The notes below the pieces were generated by a model that worked only from the letters and a program-made list of their open reading frames with translations, was not told the origin of the DNA and searched no databases. Positions 19,587 through 28,764 of a stretch of DNA of 33,309 nucleotides are shown piece by piece. Every line of letters begins with the position of its first letter. Position 1 is the stretch's first letter. This DNA comes from an uncultured Pseudomonadota bacterium (lineage in GTDB: Bacteria; Pseudomonadota; Gammaproteobacteria; Enterobacterales; Succinivibrionaceae): positions 1 through 33,309 of the forward strand of contig OMYE01000029.1 of NCBI GenBank assembly GCA_900315145.1, read 5' to 3'. Both the position numbers and the translations under genes were made by a program.

Positions 19587-20577
19587 TATCAGAAATCTGT
19601 CCATCATGCTACGCATGGAAACGGAATACCTGCAGGTATGTAAAGGAGTTGATCTATCGATTAATGAAGGGGAAATATGCAGTCTAGTGGGTAGCTCCGG
19701 ATCCGGGAAAAGTATTATCATCAAAGCGATTATGGGAATGTACGGTCATGACATGAAGGTTACAGTCGATAACTTCCGTTTTATGAACTGTGACTTAACC
19801 AATGTTGACGTCAATACCAGAAGAAAAATTCTAAGCAGGGAAATCGCCATTATATTTCAGGAGGCCAGGGCAAGTCTGGATCCTGCTCTTCCGGTAGGTA
19901 CTCAGATGAAAAACTCTCTAAGCTACAGAAGCTTCGACGACAAATGGTACCGGCTGCCATTCTGGAAAAACCGCACCATTAACAATGTACTGCATAAGGT
20001 AGGTATCAAGGATACCAAAATAATTCTCCGTTCCCTCCCTCATCAGCTTTCAGAAATTCTCTGTCAGAAAATAATTATTGCCATGGCTCTCGCCCGCAAA
20101 CCTAAACTGCTGATTGCCGATTCCCCGATAAGCGGCATGACCAGTTCATCCCAGCTGCAGATTCTGAAACTGTTTCACAGCTATGCTGAAAACCAGAAAG
20201 GGACACTTCTCTATATAACCAATGACCTGGGACCGGCCTCCAATCTTATGGACACCATAAAAATGCTATACTGCGGCAAAATTGTTGAAAGCGGCTCTAA
20301 GGAACAGGTTATAAACAACCCGCACCACCCTTTCACCCAGTCCATGATTAATGCCATTCCGGACTTTAACAGACAGCAGAAAATCAAAACAAGATTTGAT
20401 GTTTTAGGAGGAGACCCTCCTGAATTCACCAGAACACCAATCGGCTGTCCGTTAGGCCCGAGATGTCCCTACGCAGACAAGGAATGCAACTCCATGCCTC
20501 CGATTACCAAGGTAAAAAACGGATATTTTCGTTGCTACTACCCTCTAAACATGGAGAAAGACAGTGAGCTCAAATAA
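19576..20577 (+). CDS. sapD: SapD-like ABC ATPase lacking the catalytic Glu and switch His
   Basis: SapD is one of the two ATPase subunits; in E. coli it also supports potassium uptake by Trk. The product has 333 residues, like E. coli SapD. Walker A (GSSGSGKS, 39-46) and the Q-loop (IIFQEARASLDP) are intact. The signature region is weak (HQLSEILCQKIIIAMALA), as in E. coli SapD (LTEGECQKVMIA). Walker B reads LLIADSPIS, so the catalytic Glu of ADEP is Ser183. The H-loop reads ITNDLG, so the usual His is Asn216. These two changes should block or greatly slow ATP hydrolysis while leaving ATP binding possible. The C-terminal domain keeps PIGCPLGPRCPYADKEC and NMEKD. The ATG lies inside the end of sapC. 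Confidence 0.9.
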   Translation: MLLDIRNLSIMLRMETEYLQVCKGVDLSINEGEICSLVGSSGSGKSIIIKAIMGMYGHDMKVTVDNFRFMNCDLTNVDVNTRRKILSREIAIIFQEARASLDPALPVGTQMKNSLSYRSFDDKWYRLPFWKNRTINNVLHKVGIKDTKIILRSLPHQLSEILCQKIIIAMALARKPKLLIADSPISGMTSSSQLQILKLFHSYAENQKGTLLYITNDLGPASNLMDTIKMLYCGKIVESGSKEQVINNPHHPFTQSMINAIPDFNRQQKIKTRFDVLGGDPPEFTRTPIGCPLGPRCPYADKECNSMPPITKVKNGYFRCYYPLNMEKDSELK

Positions 20578-21315
20578 CAGCACCAGACGAAACAATCTTC
20601 TAGAGGTGAATAACGTAAGTGTTACCTATTCCTCCAGAAAGTACCTGTTCTTTAAGCAGAAACAGCATATTCTGACTGATATAAACTTCACCCTGAACCG
20701 GGAACAGACCCTGGTGATAACCGGTGATGCCGGCTCCGGAAAAACCACACTGTTAAAGCTGCTGACAAATCCATACATTAAGCATTCCGGTGAAATTATG
20801 GTACACGGCAAACCCCTCAGTCACTTCAGCCGTAGAAACCGGGTACACTTCATACGTATGCTGCCGACAGATCACTCCAGTGCCGTTAATCCGCACAAAA
20901 AAGTTAACTTTATTCTGGAGCAGCCTCTCAGAATGAACAGCGACTACTCCGCCATACAGCGTGAATACCGCATTGATAGAATTCTGGAACTGGTCGGTCT
21001 TTCCTCCAATATTAAAAGTCTCTATCCTGGTTACTGCTGGTGGATGCCAATATTGAAAAACTTGACGCACAACTGCGTTCCCACTGCCTGAACCTTTTTA
21101 TGGATCAGCAGAAGGAGCACGGCATGGCACTGATTATATGTCTGAATGACTTCGGGCTAATCAAACATATTGCCGATAAAATTCTTATTTTAAGCCAGGG
21201 ACGTCAGGAGGATTACGGCAATGCCAAATTCATCATTTCCCAGCCGCAGAAGGATATCACCAAACGTCTGATTCAGGATTATAACAACGAGTACCGGATA
21301 AGACCGGGGATTTAA
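20564..21315 (+). pseudogene. sapF: sapF, broken by an internal deletion and frameshift
   Basis: The second Sap ATPase starts at a GTG overlapping the end of sapD, with GGAG 7 bases upstream. Walker A is present (GDAGSGKT, 54-61). The Q-loop Gln appears replaced (MLPTDHSSAVNP, where E. coli has MIFQDPSTSLNP). After SLYPG (about 21030) the frame runs into unrelated residues and stops at 21091. Another frame continues the homology: LLLVDANIEKLD (the Walker B region, catalytic Glu replaced by Ala), then LNLF and ALIICLNDFGLIKHIADKILIL (H-loop His replaced by Asp), up to 21315. The roughly 20 residues expected between, holding the ABC signature, are missing. A deletion of about 60 bases that is not a multiple of three explains this. 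It could also be an assembly error, but the other lost residues argue for real decay. Confidence 0.85.
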
Positions 21316-21669: not shown

Positions 21670-21890
21670 AATTCAGAATCGTTTTAAATTCTGCATAACA
21701 TTCTCAGCCCGTCTTGAGAACGTCATTACTTACATCCTTTCTCTTCAGAACAGCTGTATGCTTTTCTGATTCTTCTTGTGTTTCCTGTCCGCTTCACTAA
21801 TCTCCCGATAATTCCATTTTGCCGCAGTATTCTGAGTCACCAGCTCTGCTGTTCTCTCATTACCATGCGGCACAGTTACAGGATTCTTTT

Positions 21891-23039
21891 ATGAAAACTA
21901 TAAGCGGAAGTAAAAACACCGCAATCGTCTACACGACCTCCAACCGGGATACAATGATTGACAGCTATGCCGTCAGTCAGATTGAAAACCTGTGTTCACT
22001 TGATGTTCTTAAAAACTCCAAAATTCGTATTATGCCGGATGTCCACGCCGGAAAAGTCTGTCCTATAGGCTTTACAGCCACTCTACAAAACGGGATTATG
22101 CCGATATTAATAGGAATTGATATCGGTTGCGGTATCAGCATTATGAGGATTACCCGAGGCAGGCCTGACTGGAACAGGCTTGATTCCGTCATCAGAGAAC
22201 AGATTCCTTCTGGTTCATCTATACGGCAGAAAATCTCAGTTTTTGCCAAAGACTTCGGATACAACGCTCTCGTCTGCAGCAGACATATCCGGAAACAGAA
22301 GGCGGAACTTTCTCTCGGTACGCTCGGTGGCGGCAATCACTTCATTGAAGTTGACGAATGTGACGGCGAACTGTTTCTCAGTGTACACAGCGGCAGCCGT
22401 CATTTAGGCAAAGAAGTGTTTGAACACTACACGTCGGCAGGCCAGAAAATTCTCCGGGAACAGGGAATCAATGTTCCGTATGAGCTTACCTGGATTGAAG
22501 GTAAACTGATGGAGGACTACCTTAATGATGTTTCCATAACGCAGAATTTCGCCCGGCTCAACCGGGAAATAATTCTGAATGAAATAATGAAAGGGATGAA
22601 ATGGAAAGGTGAACTGCTACTGTCATGCTGCCACAATTACATAGATTTCGATCCGGAAGTCATTGCAACACTGGGATCCCCGGTAATTCGGAAGGGAGCC
22701 ATTTCAGCTAAAGCCGGAGAGACTGTTGCCATTCCCGTCAATATGAGAGACGGCATCATTATAGCTGAAGGCCTCGGCAACACTGAGTGGAACTGTTCGG
22801 CGCCACATGGTTCCGGAAGAATTTTAAAACGCACGGAGGTAAAAAATCATATCACCTTGAGCAGTTTTAAAAAGCAGATGCAAGGCATATACACCGGATG
22901 CATAAGTTCAGCAACCCTTGACGAGGCTCCGGACGCCTACAGGGGAATACAGGAGATAGCGGAGGCTATCGGAGAAACTGTAAGGATAACAAAGATTCTG
23001 CGTCCGGTATACAGCTATAAGGCCGGAGCCGAAAACTAA
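21891..23039 (+). CDS. rtcB: RtcB-family RNA ligase (PrfH-associated type)
   Basis: RtcB joins RNA 2',3'-cyclic-phosphate (or 3'-phosphate) ends to 5'-OH ends using GTP and manganese. From the ATG at 21891 the product has 382 residues, the short form found next to prfH. Motifs in order: KIRIMPDVHAGKVCPIG, GIDIGCG with metal-binding Cys80, LGTLGGGNHFIEVD, LSVHSGSRHLGK, CCHNYIDF, and SAPHGSGR with the guanylated His306. An in-frame ATG at 21819 would add 24 residues unlike the family. The 21891 start gives the usual beginning (MKTISGSKNTAIVYT) and has AGGA 8 bases upstream. prfH follows after 18 bases. No archease or RtcA gene is present. Confidence 0.94.
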   Translation: MKTISGSKNTAIVYTTSNRDTMIDSYAVSQIENLCSLDVLKNSKIRIMPDVHAGKVCPIGFTATLQNGIMPILIGIDIGCGISIMRITRGRPDWNRLDSVIREQIPSGSSIRQKISVFAKDFGYNALVCSRHIRKQKAELSLGTLGGGNHFIEVDECDGELFLSVHSGSRHLGKEVFEHYTSAGQKILREQGINVPYELTWIEGKLMEDYLNDVSITQNFARLNREIILNEIMKGMKWKGELLLSCCHNYIDFDPEVIATLGSPVIRKGAISAKAGETVAIPVNMRDGIIIAEGLGNTEWNCSAPHGSGRILKRTEVKNHITLSSFKKQMQGIYTGCISSATLDEAPDAYRGIQEIAEAIGETVRITKILRPVYSYKAGAEN

Positions 23040-23057
23040 CACGGAAGGTAATAAAAT

Positions 23058-23648
23058 ATGCTTATTCAAATCAGTTCCGGTCAGGGACCGGCGGAATGCG
23101 AACTTGCTGTAGCCATGTTCGTTGAAAGTATTATGACGGAATTCAAAGGTCTCACTCTGGTTGAGTCCAGGTCAGGACGGAATAAAAACTGTCTCTGTTC
23201 GGCAACTCTCAGAACCGATGATGATCTCTCATTTCTTGTAGGAAGTGTCCTCTGGATATGCAGAAGTCCCTTCAGGCCGAACCACAAAAGAAAAAACTGG
23301 TTCATCGATGTGAGTGTTATTCCGGAAACGGTACAGATTCCTAAAGACGGAGCAATCCGCTTTGAAAGATTCCATGCCGGCGGTAACGGAGGACAGAACG
23401 TTAACAAGGTGGAAACCGGTGTAAGACTTACGCATATTCCAACCGGTATCGTGGTGACCTCTACTGCCGAAAGGACTCAGGAGCTTAACCGCAGGGATGC
23501 CATGAAAAAACTCGAGATACAGTTGAATCAGCGTCAGTCTGAAGCGGAAGCCAACCAGAAAAACAAGGCCTGGATAGTTCACTACAGGCTTCAGAGAGGT
23601 AATCCCGTGAGATCTTATCAAGGAAGGGAATTCAAACGGATAAAATAG
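23058..23648 (+). CDS. prfH: Peptide chain release factor homologue PrfH
   Basis: PrfH is a release-factor relative with the GGQ domain but no codon-recognition domain. In E. coli strains carrying the rtcB2-prfH pair, it releases the peptide from ribosomes whose 16S rRNA was cut at the decoding centre, and RtcB then reseals the RNA. The product has 196 residues. The GGQ loop is FHAGGNGGQNVNKVETGVR (GGQ at 111-113), followed by the basic helical part ERTQELNRRDAMKKLE and a C-terminus ending RSYQGREFKRIK. The N-terminal part (about 1-90) is the PrfH-specific domain. GGAAGG lies about 10 bases before the ATG. It is co-directional with rtcB and ends at a strong terminator. Confidence 0.95.
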   Translation: MLIQISSGQGPAECELAVAMFVESIMTEFKGLTLVESRSGRNKNCLCSATLRTDDDLSFLVGSVLWICRSPFRPNHKRKNWFIDVSVIPETVQIPKDGAIRFERFHAGGNGGQNVNKVETGVRLTHIPTGIVVTSTAERTQELNRRDAMKKLEIQLNQRQSEAEANQKNKAWIVHYRLQRGNPVRSYQGREFKRIK

Positions 23649-23873: not shown

Positions 23874-26800
23874 TTATCCGGCATCTTTGCTGCTAAGGCA
23901 GACAGCCATATGGTAATCCTCACGTTTCTTGACACTCAGAGAGAACATGAGACAGGCGGTACTATGTCCTTTTTCAAGCATATGGAAGTCAACAAACATC
24001 TGAATTCCGGTTCGGGAATCCTGAAGCAACGCCTCACGATCAAGAGCCTTTTTAACCTTTTCCCGTTGCTTACCATCAGTTATTTTAGCCAGAAAAAGAG
24101 ACTCCACATCGACGAAGAAATCTTCACCTTCCCTGCTGACGGCATACCCGCCGGAATTGTCAACGGCCAGTTCAATATACCTGCAGGAAACCATATCAAT
24201 ATAGTATATGTTCTTCAAACCATTTTGGACATCAGAACCCAGGGCATCATAATCCTTTTTAAATGCCGGAACGATTTCAACATGTCTGCCCCTGCGTTCA
24301 GTCAGGAATCTGTTGAATTCTTCTGCCGGAACAGGTTTGGAGAAATAATACCCCTGAACATATTCACAACCCATTGCTTTCAGAGACAGCATCTGATCCT
24401 CGGTCTCAACACCCTCAGCAATAACGGAAAGATTCAGGTATTCGGCAATCTCCAGAATAATCTCCAGCAGACGGACATCCTTTTTCTGATTGGCAAAGGC
24501 ATTGCGTACCAGACTCATATCAAGTTTCAGTGCATCTATGGATATATTGGTCAGCATCCCCAGTGATGAATAACCGGTACCGAAATCATCCATCTCAATA
24601 CGGAATCCCCTGCCGTCATCCCGCAGATCTTTTGCGGTTGACACCACCTGTACAGAATCATCTGCATAGGCTGACTCCGTAATCTCGAGAACCAGGTCAT
24701 CAGTTGAAAGTTTGTTATCCCGCAGAATATCCATAAAAATACCTTTAAGATTAGGCGTCAGCATATCTATACGGGAAACGTTTACGGAAACCGGAACAGA
24801 ATAACCGAATTCATTCTTCCAGGCTCTTATCTGGGCTCCTACTTCTCGCCACACGTACTTATCCAGTTCGATTATGAGTCCACATTCCTCCAGAAGAGGA
24901 ATGAATACGACCGGACTTATCATCCCCATCTCGGGATGAATCCATCTCACCAGAGCCTCGGCACTGTAAAGGATAGGATTATCAAAGCGGATGTCAAATT
25001 TTGGCTGATAAAACACCTTGAAATCCCTGTTATCTATAGACTTATGAAAATCCTCCAGCAGTCTTTCCTTGTTGACTACGGTCTGATGCATTTCAGCATT
25101 ATATACACCGATGAAATTTAAAAAGCCGTTCTTAACGCTGTTTGCCGCCATAATAGCCCGGTCAAAACGTTGCTCCACCTCAAGATTTCTATCAACATTA
25201 GGATATATCCCCATGCGCAGCCATACTCTGCCGGCAGTGAGATTTGCTGCGCCGTTCATAACGGATATTTTCTCAAAAAATTCACTGTAGCTGTCCTGAT
25301 GCTGGCAGTACAGAAGGAAGACGTCTGACTCCTTGCGGCAGCATACGGCACTTATTTCACCTGAGTACTCTCTTATCTTGGAGCCGACAATCTTCAGAAC
25401 ACCATCACCGTATTTTCTACCGTGACGCTCGTTAATCATATGAAAGTGATTAATGTCCACAACCAGGGCATCCATGGAATAATCTTCGTAATGTTTGTCA
25501 AACATCCGGACATAACGTTTGAAGTACTCGAAGTTATAAAGACCTGTGATACTGTCACGTTCTGTATTCTTGATGGTATCACGATCTTCATAAAGCTCGA
25601 TGCACTTGGTTATACGTGCCAGAATTATTTCCTTTGCCGGATAAGGCTTCTGCAGATAGTCAACAGCTCCAAGATTAAGACACTCCACTTCAGTCCCCTG
25701 CTCGGCGGTAAGCACAATAACCGGAATTCTGCTGTATTCACTGTTATTAGTCATCTTACGCAAAACATCAATACCGCTCATTTTCGGCAGTTGGAGATCC
25801 AGCAGAACCATAGCTATAACCTCGCTATACTGCTGAATCTTTTTAAGAGCCTCAATACCGTCCTCGGCATAGAGCAGTTCATAACTGTCCTGCAGCATAT
25901 TCCCGAGAATTTTCCGGTTGATAAGTTCATCATCAACTATCAGAATATACTTTTTAATGCTGATAGCAGCAAGTTCACTGTCCCGTTTATTTTCAGCATC
26001 AGCATCGGCATCGTCATCATTGAGTAATCCTGCAAGGAGCTTTTTATTCTCATACATCATGTCATTGGCACGGATGAACACTTCATTAACGCTTACATCC
26101 ACATTAGGCACATAGTCGGATAATCCTCCGGCAACTACCACTCCGCCGTTTTTAATATGAGTAACCGATCTGCTGTAGATTCTGCTCATCAGATTCTTGC
26201 GCTCATTGTAGTCACTGCCTACCAGTATCAGTACAAATACATCACTGTTAACTCTGTATATCGTGCTGTGTTTAAATATGGAGGACAACATTAAACAGGC
26301 ATTTCTGACATATTCATCACCAGCCTTTCTGCCGAGACTTGCCAGTATTTTCTTCATATTGCATATATTGAATACCGCCAGTGAAAAAGCCCCCAGTGCG
26401 CCGTCCTGAAGAGACTGATCAAGTTTTGCCTCCCGCTTTATATAAGCCTTCTTACTCATTGCTCCGGATACCGGATCGGTATGAGCCATCATATTAGAGT
26501 GACGTGAACGGGCCGTCATATATATATGATTGACCATCATTATTACGAAGGCTGTGATAAACATAGCTATGGCCAGCGCCACCGATCTTGTACCGTTATT
26601 CTCCAGCCCGTTGATCTTATCTTTGATAAAACTGCTGACATTCCCCTTACCGGCAAATTCTTTCAGGTAATCATCAATCTGCTGAAAAATTATGTTGTTG
26701 TGCGAAAGGATATTCTGCCACATCCACACCATATCGATAAGAAGAGCAAATGACAGCAATGCCACCCACGCAAAATGGGTACTGCCGAAAATATTCTCCC

Positions 26801-28190
26801 GGTCGTGACGGAGGACATAATGAAAATAAAGGAATCCTAAAATACTCCATATCATAAATACAAGATAGGTTTCCTTATTCATACTGCCTATATAGAATAA
26901 ATCTGGCAGTATAAGATACATTCCTAGCCACATCATCACCGCAAGGCTGAGAGCACCGGTTACCTTTTCGATTATGTCACCACGTTCCTCCGCCTTTTTA
27001 AGGGTGGCTGCCGATACCATGCCATAGACGATAATGGCACCGATATTCATCACGTCGATAATCCACTCCATGGCGGTTCTGCCAAGGAAAGGTATCAGAA
27101 TGGAAACAACAGCAATAAAACGGATGGCGTTCATTGGTACTTTTCTGCTGTTCAGATCCGTAAAACATGAAGGCAGAACCTGATTACGTGAAGCTGAATA
27201 AAAAATCCGGCTCAAAGCAAAAAACGTACCTATAAGAGTGGTGAACACAATACAGAACTGTGATAGCAGGAGCAACCCTAAACCGGCGTTACCGAGATAA
27301 TGATGTACAGCATAAAAAGCCGGCAGTGATTCAATTCCAGATAAATTACCGAGATCTTTTATATATTCCACCCATGAGGAATATCTCTCAGGATAGGCAG
27401 TAACCGACATCAGTATTGCTGATATGTAAAGCAGACTGATAGTCACTGTCGCAATTACCATTATTTTAAAAATTTTCTGTTTCGGAAAACTATATTCAGA
27501 TGAGGCATGGGACACACTCTCAAAACCGACAAAAGCCCACGGTGCCACAAAAGCGACTGAAATAATCTGTCCGAATACTCCCGAATCAGGTATAAAAGCA
27601 GGTTCTAGCGACCTGTCTATACCGCCTGTTGATGCCAAAAAACATACAAGAAGCCCCACAGTAAACAGTATGGTCAGGGAAATCATGGCGGTAACACACA
27701 CCTTAAGACCTCTGAGACTCAGGAGAGCAGCTGCCACAATGAAGATGATACTGAAAAGAGCCTCTCCAAAGTAGACTTCATGTCCGAATACGGAATAAAG
27801 CTGCCAGAACTTCAGGGCATCGCCGGTAAAGGTATTTACCAGCATAGGCATTGATGTGGCCCCTGCCCACAGCATAACAAAATAAATCAGGGATAAAAAC
27901 CAACCGGTAAGATAACCGCAGTCATTCCCGAATATCTCCCGGCAGAAGCTGTACGTTCCCCCTAACTTGGGATAGATCTGAATCAGATATGCATAGTTAC
28001 GACAGACAAGCAGAATGTACAGAGTTCCCAGAATTACTCCGAGTACACTGCCCCACGATCCTGCCTTATCAAGATAAATATTACTGGTGGCAACAAGAGT
28101 GCTCCAGCCTATGCCGGTACCGGTACAGAATGCCCATACCCCAACCCCTGAAAAATCAGTATTTTGCCTGTTTTGAATAGATGCTCCCAT
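23874..28190 (-). CDS. APC-family permease fused to GGDEF-REC-GGDEF-EAL and a PAS-like tail
   Basis: The product has 1438 residues. About 1-560 is an APC-superfamily amino-acid permease with some 14 membrane segments, including the typical FVAPWAFVGFESVSHASSEY and ALSRIFYSASR. Next come a degenerate GGDEF domain (about 570-720; GGDEF replaced by NSDVF near Asp650), a receiver domain (about 742-862; LIVDDE, phospho-acceptor Asp798 in LLDLQLP, VLTA, QKPY), a second degenerate GGDEF (about 865-1030; ESDVF near Asp956), and an EAL domain (about 1035-1290). The EAL residues look complete: AEALVRW (Glu1078), NVS, LEITES, DDFGTG (1201-1206), LKLD, AEGVET and VQGYYF, so cyclic-di-GMP phosphodiesterase activity is expected. 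The last 140 residues look PAS-like (YYIDMVSCRYIEL, GEDFFVDVESLFLAKI). It may sense or transport an amino acid and control cyclic-di-GMP. The gene stands alone. Confidence 0.9.
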   Translation of the reverse strand: MGASIQNRQNTDFSGVGVWAFCTGTGIGWSTLVATSNIYLDKAGSWGSVLGVILGTLYILLVCRNYAYLIQIYPKLGGTYSFCREIFGNDCGYLTGWFLSLIYFVMLWAGATSMPMLVNTFTGDALKFWQLYSVFGHEVYFGEALFSIIFIVAAALLSLRGLKVCVTAMISLTILFTVGLLVCFLASTGGIDRSLEPAFIPDSGVFGQIISVAFVAPWAFVGFESVSHASSEYSFPKQKIFKIMVIATVTISLLYISAILMSVTAYPERYSSWVEYIKDLGNLSGIESLPAFYAVHHYLGNAGLGLLLLSQFCIVFTTLIGTFFALSRIFYSASRNQVLPSCFTDLNSRKVPMNAIRFIAVVSILIPFLGRTAMEWIIDVMNIGAIIVYGMVSAATLKKAEERGDIIEKVTGALSLAVMMWLGMYLILPDLFYIGSMNKETYLVFMIWSILGFLYFHYVLRHDRENIFGSTHFAWVALLSFALLIDMVWMWQNILSHNNIIFQQIDDYLKEFAGKGNVSSFIKDKINGLENNGTRSVALAIAMFITAFVIMMVNHIYMTARSRHSNMMAHTDPVSGAMSKKAYIKREAKLDQSLQDGALGAFSLAVFNICNMKKILASLGRKAGDEYVRNACLMLSSIFKHSTIYRVNSDVFVLILVGSDYNERKNLMSRIYSRSVTHIKNGGVVVAGGLSDYVPNVDVSVNEVFIRANDMMYENKKLLAGLLNDDDADADAENKRDSELAAISIKKYILIVDDELINRKILGNMLQDSYELLYAEDGIEALKKIQQYSEVIAMVLLDLQLPKMSGIDVLRKMTNNSEYSRIPVIVLTAEQGTEVECLNLGAVDYLQKPYPAKEIILARITKCIELYEDRDTIKNTERDSITGLYNFEYFKRYVRMFDKHYEDYSMDALVVDINHFHMINERHGRKYGDGVLKIVGSKIREYSGEISAVCCRKESDVFLLYCQHQDSYSEFFEKISVMNGAANLTAGRVWLRMGIYPNVDRNLEVEQRFDRAIMAANSVKNGFLNFIGVYNAEMHQTVVNKERLLEDFHKSIDNRDFKVFYQPKFDIRFDNPILYSAEALVRWIHPEMGMISPVVFIPLLEECGLIIELDKYVWREVGAQIRAWKNEFGYSVPVSVNVSRIDMLTPNLKGIFMDILRDNKLSTDDLVLEITESAYADDSVQVVSTAKDLRDDGRGFRIEMDDFGTGYSSLGMLTNISIDALKLDMSLVRNAFANQKKDVRLLEIILEIAEYLNLSVIAEGVETEDQMLSLKAMGCEYVQGYYFSKPVPAEEFNRFLTERRGRHVEIVPAFKKDYDALGSDVQNGLKNIYYIDMVSCRYIELAVDNSGGYAVSREGEDFFVDVESLFLAKITDGKQREKVKKALDREALLQDSRTGIQMFVDFHMLEKGHSTACLMFSLSVKKREDYHMAVCLSSKDAG

Positions 28191-28723
28191 ATTGTATCCG
28201 CTTTAATCAACTGTTTATTATGTATCACCGTAAAACAGCCAGGTAATATTCACAACTGGAACATGTCCGTTATCATCTTTACTCTGCAATATTCTGAGTA
28301 TACTTATTTTTGTATACTTATTTTTGTATATTTATTTTTGTATATTTATTTAATATATTTTTCCTTTATTATTTTTATCCGTTTTTATAATTTATTGTCT
28401 GCTATTTATATCCGGCAGCCGTCTTTTCCCTGTTTTCCTGCCATTCCAAATGCAGAGCCAGAAAATTACCATAAAAACAGATGACAGCATTAAAATCTAA
28501 AAAGAGCATAAGGCTGTTATTAAACTATTCAACAGTCCGTCTATCATATTTATTATTTCTACACTTAAAATTTTAAAACTTAACTATAGAAAAGAAAAAA
28601 AGATATACCGCCTATAAAAATATTCAATAAACCACAACAATTATAAAACACATAAATAATTTATTATCTAGCAAATGCCTCAAAATTGCTCAATAATCAC
28701 TCTATACCGACACCCAATTAAAT
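28191..28723. other. AT-rich intergenic region upstream of the permease-EAL gene
   Basis: No supportable gene is seen between the permease-EAL gene and the adk terminator. The part at 28298-28380 carries a 14-bp tandem repeat. A plus-strand open frame of 106 codons (28164-28484) crosses the repeat and reads as low-complexity Tyr/Phe/Ile, so I do not treat it as a gene. The promoter of the permease-EAL gene should lie here. Confidence 0.45.
28298..28351. repeat. 14-bp tandem repeat, nearly four copies
   Basis: Units GTATACTTATTTTT (28298-28311 and 28312-28325), GTATATTTATTTTT (28326-28339) and a partial GTATATTTATTT (28340-28351). It lies about 110-160 bases before the start of the permease-EAL gene, where copy-number change could alter promoter spacing. 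Confidence 0.92.
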
Positions 28724-28764
28724 AAAAAAAAACCGGCATCACAAAATGCCGGAATTGTTTTTTG
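28724..28764 (-). terminator. Intrinsic terminator of adk
   Basis: Arms CCGGCAT (28733-28739) and ATGCCGG (28746-28752) are followed on the minus strand by nine T. The plus strand also has a T-rich run (TTGTTTTTTG), so it may work in both directions. It lies about 110 bases after the adk stop. Confidence 0.9.

Follow-up and report, generated by a model that had tools for sequence, protein, structure and literature searches.

Can an amino-acid permease act as the sensory part of an enzyme that degrades cyclic di-GMP (c-di-GMP)? The question is raised by a single gene on contig OMYE01000029.1 of a gammaproteobacterium, of which the whole 33,309-nt stretch analysed is referred to here as the window; coordinates are positions in this stretch, and the gene lies on its minus strand (Table 1). 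An earlier reading of this DNA, made from its letters and hereafter called the sequence-only reading, had described one uninterrupted frame joining an APC-type transporter to a chain of c-di-GMP signalling domains and a PAS-like tail. The frame is indeed continuous: it starts with ATG and runs for 1438 aa without an internal stop, inside an open frame of 1442 aa. Its product is a complete transporter-fold domain and a signalling domain in one chain, and this architecture, far from being a one-off, belongs as one branch to a large family of APC-based signalling proteins.

Domains were called with Pfam profiles, and motif conservation was assessed over 13 aligned rows that include the window protein. 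The membrane part matches AA_permease at residues 20-422 (E 2e-27) and passes the curated Pfam cut-offs of both PF00324 and PF13520 (96.5 bits vs 24.6 and 70.3 vs 27), as the proposal of an APC-type transporter would have it. Further along the chain, Response_reg matches residues 749-856 (E 5e-21), GGDEF matches in two stretches (the best at residues 878-969, E 4e-20), and EAL matches residues 1047-1286 (E 3e-56), which together with the fold models reproduces the previously suggested order GGDEF-REC-GGDEF-EAL (REC, receiver); the linker at residues 470-567 has no Pfam match. The phosphorylatable aspartate and the EAL residues that had looked complete in this one protein are complete throughout the alignment: Asp798, within the LLDL motif of the receiver, is conserved in 13 of 13 rows, as are the receiver Asp, Thr and Lys motifs and the EAL-site motifs (EAL, N, E, DD, K, E, Q), whose letters we take to be catalytic. 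Neither GGDEF site of the window protein reads GG(D/E)EF, the motif of diguanylate cyclases (NSDVF and ESDVF instead), and at GGDEF2 the canonical sequence is found in 0 of the 13 rows. Retention of the REC and EAL motifs alongside a uniformly degenerate GGDEF2 is what would be expected if the protein works through REC and EAL, and the predicted enzyme output is c-di-GMP hydrolysis by the EAL domain. Domains, folds and signatures thus support, as a reading, the earlier suggestion of a membrane receptor that steers c-di-GMP breakdown.

Table 1. Positions of the fused gene, its predicted domains and nearby features in the window.
Feature	Position	Strand	Basis or remark
Whole gene	23874..28190	-	1438 aa: APC - TM13/loop/TM14 - GGDEF1 - REC - GGDEF2 - EAL - tail (TM, transmembrane segment)
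APC (LeuT-fold) amino-acid-permease domain, residues 14-463	26802..28151	-	Pfam AA_permease/AA_permease_2 and fold match
TM13, extracytoplasmic helical hairpin of ~45 residues (inferred topology) and TM14, leading by a helical stalk into GGDEF1; residues 470-567	26490..26783	-	model and hydropathy
GGDEF1, residues 570-726, catalytically degenerate by motif	26013..26483	-	alignment with relatives
Receiver (REC), residues 746-862, phospho-acceptor Asp798	25605..25955	-	Pfam and motifs
GGDEF2, residues 873-1035, degenerate (ESDVF, 954-958)	25086..25574	-	Pfam and alignment
EAL phosphodiesterase domain, residues 1041-1300, complete site motifs	24291..25070	-	Pfam, motifs and fold
C-terminal tail, residues 1310-1438, possibly PAS-like	23877..24263	-	model; weak counterparts
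AT-rich 14-bp tandem repeat, 3.9 copies, 97% matches	28298..28351	.	in the leader, ~110 bp upstream of the start codon
Terminator-like stem and T run after adk	28733..28752	-	weak class: 9 terminator-like sites vs 3.7 expected

The structural models are consistent with these assignments. Residues 1-745, modelled by AlphaFold2 with 20 relatives (mean predicted local distance difference test score [pLDDT] 83.5, predicted template-modelling score [pTM] 0.70), form an APC bundle followed by long helices at 473-511 and 518-569, the second of which continues directly into GGDEF1. Hydropathy segments near 470-492 and 532-561 place both helices partly in the membrane, so that, added to the APC helices, they make the sequence-only estimate of about 14 membrane segments a reasonable one. 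In Foldseek searches with this model, the bundle has a LeuT-type fold, matching AdiC (3ob6, TM-score 0.81) and GkApcT (6f34, 0.79), both by target; the closest solved sequences are CAT1, CAT4 and GkApcT. The model of residues 569-1438 (pLDDT 77.9, pTM 0.44, so low that relative domain placement is not trustworthy) matches the GGDEF-EAL proteins MorA, PA0575 and DosP, and its EAL part alone scores 0.89-0.92 by target (BifA 8arv 0.92, MorA 4rnj 0.91, PdeA 3u2e 0.92). The tail is modelled, at modest confidence, as strands and helices, which fits the proposed PAS-like character and leaves it plausible; as a Pfam assignment it is ruled out, four such C-terminal tails giving no match to PAS or any other family even at E 1. 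Counterparts of the tail are weak (16% identity in L031 and 21% in L041, with a tail of comparable length in L042).

How widespread is this arrangement? Searched against 84,980 species genomes, seven APC parts gave at least 593 pattern matches and at least 553 confirmed relatives, of which the 80 most window-like loci were kept; counts among these are not population frequencies. The kept relatives are labelled nearly all Bacillota from gut or rumen samples, the exceptions being Actinomycetota (L057, L079, L091), Treponema or Spirochaetales (L095, L100) and Fretibacterium (L108). Their 89 APC open reading frames (ORFs) comprise 62 APC-histidine kinases (APC-HKs), 18 APC-GGDEF proteins, six with the full window order and three others (five, one, none and one, respectively, being cut by an end). 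The six, all in Bacillota genomes (L031, L034, L035, L038, L041, L083), carry exactly the window order in one frame, which is what a search for the same architecture in other genomes was meant to reveal. Elsewhere the window protein corresponds to two separate neighbour genes: four loci (L032, L033, L036, L039) have a REC-GGDEF-EAL gene 3-52 bp downstream of an APC-GGDEF gene; L042 has the two in the opposite order, with open frames overlapping by 16 bp; and in L037 the second gene lies nearby on the opposite strand. The objection that homologues might always encode the permease and EAL parts apart therefore falls, since only some of them do. The related objection, that the gene is an assembly join, can draw on the draft state of the genome (246 contigs) and on these very two-gene relatives; we give it a negligible probability because this order recurs in a single frame in six other genomes and, moreover, the REC-GGDEF-EAL halves of all seven proteins group in one clade. 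The sequence-only reading knew of no described APC-REC-EAL fusion, and narrow queries of the open-access PubMed Central (PMC) literature likewise listed no paper on APC fused to a histidine kinase, GGDEF or EAL, which does not establish absence from print. We note in passing that one further locus (G066, L025 1438-4179, +) has an APC permease in frame with an iron-containing alcohol dehydrogenase, an unrelated output.

Phylogenies of the two halves tell different histories. In an APC tree of 100 rows, built without duplicates or rows shorter than 280 aa, the c-di-GMP-type APC parts except L056 form one clade of 26 rows (Shimodaira-Hasegawa-like approximate likelihood ratio test [SH-aLRT] 100), which includes L048, where no output domain was recognised, and within this tree the window APC part groups with L034 and L031 (support 91). 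The Bacillota APC-HKs encoded beside fused genes fall outside this clade, and so does the APC-HK of the window genome itself, whose place is among APC-HKs from the same family (98). Among 28 REC-GGDEF-EAL halves, by contrast with what the APC halves show, the seven fused rows make up one clade (100/100), the two-gene rows neighbour it (100/99 together), and 11 REC-GGDEF-EAL genes upstream of APC-HKs form a separate clade. In a tree of 26 APC halves, from which L011, L056, L095 and the APC-HKs except for three were left out, the fused rows stand in two places, and a single clade, a group named before the tree was built, is rejected by the approximately unbiased (AU) test (p 0.0016), with the window branch being long (1.26). 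A single origin of the whole fused protein is accordingly rejected for the APC half and not for the output half. A single output clade with split APC halves indicates that the seven share a common REC-GGDEF-EAL cassette on which the permease half was exchanged at least once.

The first GGDEF domain has a history of its own. All 20 relatives in alignment A3 read GGDEF where the window protein reads NSDVF (648-652), and the CDVNGLKKIND signature of these relatives has become FNICNMKKILA. Of four APC-GGDEF ORFs outside that alignment, L039, L049 and L095 also read GGDEF, and in the third APC gene of L041 the frame is lost immediately ahead of this motif, so that GGDEF1 is canonical in 23 of the 24 APC relatives that carry the domain. 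The sequence-only description of both GGDEF domains as degenerate thus applies to the window protein, whereas across the family it applies to the second domain only. Given the 23 canonical relatives, the ancestor was probably both cyclase and phosphodiesterase, with the cyclase lost in the window line, a loss seen in one sequence. Two dCache-GGDEF-REC-GGDEF proteins (L009 2392-5286, +; L010 4262-7081, -), with canonical GGDEF and 45% identity to the window GGDEF1, show the same cytoplasmic chain carried by a Cache sensor in place of a permease.

If Asp798 is phosphorylated, a kinase must be found for it. The sequence-only reading left this to an unknown kinase and noted that no partner lay nearby; the latter holds within the window, whereas elsewhere in the same genome two candidates exist, an APC-HisKA-HATPase-REC protein on contig C155 (L012, 1014-aa frame) and a non-APC hybrid kinase on contig C137. 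In favour of the former, each of the seven genomes that encode the fused form also has an APC-HK, directly upstream of the fused gene at -37 to +37 bp in four (L035, L038, L041, L083) and elsewhere in the genome in three (L060 in the L034 genome, L134 in the L031 genome, and L012). More broadly, among the 53 of 62 APC-HK ORFs with more than 1.2 kb of upstream sequence, 20 are immediately preceded on their own strand by a gene with an EAL domain, which in 12 cases is a REC-GGDEF-EAL gene; for comparison, the whole 3-Mb window genome has nine EAL places, in a c-di-GMP network that also counts 13 GGDEF and two PilZ places. The gaps below these upstream EAL genes are 320-535 bp, with one exception of -4, so that a shared transcript is not implied for those pairs.

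These observations can be assembled into a working scheme. We lean, as somewhat more probable than its opposite, towards a transceptor-type phosphodiesterase in which ligand and phosphorylation jointly set c-di-GMP breakdown. The APC domain would bind an amino acid or related small molecule; the occupied state would be passed via TM13, the extracytoplasmic hairpin, TM14 and the helical stalk to a cytoplasmic chain with dead GGDEF1, REC, dead GGDEF2 and EAL; phosphorylation of Asp798, most likely by the C155 APC-HK, would be the second input; and both inputs together would set the rate at which EAL hydrolyses c-di-GMP. The higher conservation of membrane-proximal and TM6-like APC stretches (0.76-0.86 against an average of 0.60 in 95 rows) is as expected if ligand binding has been kept. 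In Bacillota relatives with a canonical GGDEF1, a ligand-controlled cyclase would be joined to a kinase-controlled phosphodiesterase to make a two-way switch, which in the window lineage would have been reduced to a phosphodiesterase with two inputs. A wider proposal, which we hold only tentatively and judge rather less than an even bet, is that an APC-HK and an APC-cyclase-receiver-phosphodiesterase are made side by side as a two-receptor, two-way c-di-GMP switch, that sensors were exchanged on the REC-GGDEF-EAL cassette, and that a gammaproteobacterium acquired one such protein and lost the cyclase site, leaving a pure degrader. One ligand class would then act twice, directly on the cyclase via the fused permease and on the phosphodiesterase via phosphorylation.

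Several findings weigh against this scheme, most of them touching the choice of kinase. No signalling gene of the kinds sought lies upstream of 28 of the 53 APC-HK ORFs, and five have others; no APC-HK was found at E 1e-60 in the genomes of L032, L033, L036, L039 and L042; and PAS-PAS-HisKA hybrid kinases stand alongside the two-gene L032, L033, L036 and L039, which suggests that the kinase partner of the output clade may change. In the APC tree, the APC-HK of the window genome is also placed away from the APC-HKs that neighbour the Bacillota fused genes, so the pair was not inherited as a unit. That the receptor works as described while Asp798 is phosphorylated by a non-APC hybrid kinase is a possibility we rate as distinctly unlikely, yet it gathers support from these PAS-type neighbours, from a stand-alone REC-GGDEF-EAL gene beside a PAS-HisKA-HATPase-REC-REC kinase in G019 (L016 1121-4690 and 4912-6621, -), and from L034, in the permease tree one of the window protein's two closest relatives, which has a HisKA-HATPase kinase with two REC domains (857 aa) 52 bp downstream. 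The closest window-genome match to that kinase is the C137 protein (HisKA-HATPase-REC-REC, 952 aa; 39% over residues 330-843, 335 bits, vs 192 for C155). Cross-matches between hybrid kinases are a poor guide to partner choice, however, and all seven fused-form genomes do carry an APC-HK.

The sensor half invites doubts of another kind. The window APC branch is long, 1.26 against 0.24-0.39 in its nearest kin, and the protein departs from APC positions conserved at 95% or more (G30 to S, N110 to G, G129 to W), so that its sensing may be altered or relaxed. Carried further, the same branch, a GGDEF1 that is dead in the window protein only, the absence of the gene from the genus's three other genomes in the sampled set, the lack of a kinase next door and the broken APC-GGDEF relative in G021 would fit a gene in decay or with a structural role only, a relic gained by horizontal transfer that has drifted since the cyclase was lost. 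We find this improbable, as 1438 codons remain open, the REC and EAL motifs are still complete, the output half shows an unremarkable rate of evolution (branch 0.56) and the composition resembles that of the neighbours (GC 0.436). If the permease part were instead a working transporter, the fusion might mainly sense transport turnover and not ligand occupancy, which is unlikely in our view but deserves real weight: the APC fold and Pfam cut-offs are fully matched, the TM1, TM3 and TM6-like stretches are conserved across 95 rows, and CbrA, an SLC5 sensor kinase, is reported to transport histidine. Ks-Amt5, an Amt protein fused to a histidine kinase, is reported to have lost transport while keeping binding, and the three substitutions just listed at near-invariant positions also weigh against a working transporter. 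The transceptor-type phosphodiesterase remains our preferred reading.

No name for the ligand is offered by the permease itself, since NCBIfam matches lie far under the curated cut-offs (BcaP 69.9 bits vs 690), nor by RNA elements, as a search of 11 sources (147,893 bases) gave no riboswitch or other known RNA at gathering score and one tRNA only.

No 16S sequence was found in the draft, and the assignment of the genome to the Gammaproteobacteria is based on HtpG, whose ten listed best hits are all gammaproteobacterial (the top one, from Aeromonas, at 62.1%), and on an ArcB-type kinase. The APC part has no match in any of the genus's three other genomes and is matched in 8 of 56 genomes of the family, including G021, whose APC-GGDEF gene is broken into two open pieces (L011 616-2328 and 2159-2869, -), and APC-GGDEF is found at E 1e-60 in 0 of 397 other genomes of the phylum sample. 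Transfer from Bacillota is, by distribution, the likely direction. Composition gives no support for a recent transfer (gene GC 0.436, 0.457 at third codon positions, like its neighbours). Plasmid carriage was considered and dropped: the APC part has matches in 67 plasmid records, and the ten listed share only 22-28% identity with it and, where annotated, are ordinary permeases. Adjoining the fused gene are rtcB-like and RF-1-domain (prfH-like) genes (21819-23648, +); none of the genus's three other genomes has a prfH match, so the rtcB/prfH pair may have arrived in the insertion that brought the fused gene, or close to it. In G002 a 597-aa ORF and adk come after the neighbouring transporter genes, with neither a prfH homologue nor the fused gene. 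The terminator-like stem after adk suggests that the fused gene is transcribed apart from adk. On the far side, the last ABC-transporter ATPase of a peptide-transport operon is split over two overlapping frames (20564-21091 and 21040-21315, +), with a single 273-aa frame as its counterpart in G002, the break lying either in the gene or in the assembly.

Fusions of transporters to signalling domains have already been described for SLC5 and Amt; here it is the amino-acid permease fold that takes the sensory position in histidine kinases, in cyclases and in combined c-di-GMP enzymes, for the most part in bacteria of the rumen and gut. Were the two-receptor proposal true, APC permeases would be one of the common receptor folds in those bacteria, and, should the ligands be amino acids, the availability of peptides and amino acids in the rumen would be linked to c-di-GMP, a messenger that commonly controls attachment and motility. 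The fused proteins and their two-gene counterparts are natural pairs with and without the covalent link, the adjacent kinase genes are testable partners, and one output cassette bearing permease sensors from two different branches makes an evolutionary test case. The parts are familiar; specialists would be surprised by a widespread family of permease sensors whose halves are exchangeable and whose kinases are encoded next door.

Among known systems, the closest sequences and folds to residues ~14-463 are those of APC transporters (CAT1, GkApcT, AdiC, BasC), which differ in lacking a fused signalling output and in that transport by the window APC is putative. RocR (3sy8), MorA (4rnh), PA0575 (5m3c) and DosP (9cmf) resemble the other end in fold and sequence, with an EAL domain and a dead GGDEF-EAL tandem, but have no APC receptor. 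The APC-HKs (L012; L094 of Butyrivibrio sp. MB2005; L109 of Butyrivibrio sp. XPD2006) share a homologous APC part and the TM13/TM14 linker, and differ in their HisKA-HATPase(-REC) output and in lying apart from the c-di-GMP-type clade described above. The SLC5-STAC transceptors (CbrA, CrbS and SLC5-STAC-GGDEF proteins; PMC7096432, PMC5715377, PMC13022988), are reported likewise to combine a complete secondary-transporter domain, a linker and a histidine-kinase or GGDEF output, whereas the window protein has an APC domain (PF00324/PF13520), a TM-hairpin-TM linker and a GGDEF-REC-GGDEF-EAL output, a phosphodiesterase with a receiver. Six Pfam families match it at E up to 1, none of them SLC5, and its linker matches no Pfam family, among which a STAC model may be lacking. 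Amt sensors, too, are transporter domains turned receptors with a helical stalk into the output, a histidine kinase in Ks-Amt5 and GGDEF in the solved chains 8qj3/8qpf, which are named 'Ammonium transporter' and match the stalk-GGDEF profile; they differ in their Amt fold, trimeric state and lack of REC and EAL, GGDEF1 of the window protein being dead and its predicted working enzyme EAL, and only APC-type Pfam families, not Amt, match the membrane part. The window protein would be akin in its working to both the SLC5-STAC and the Amt sensors and, because its transporter family differs, is a member of neither.

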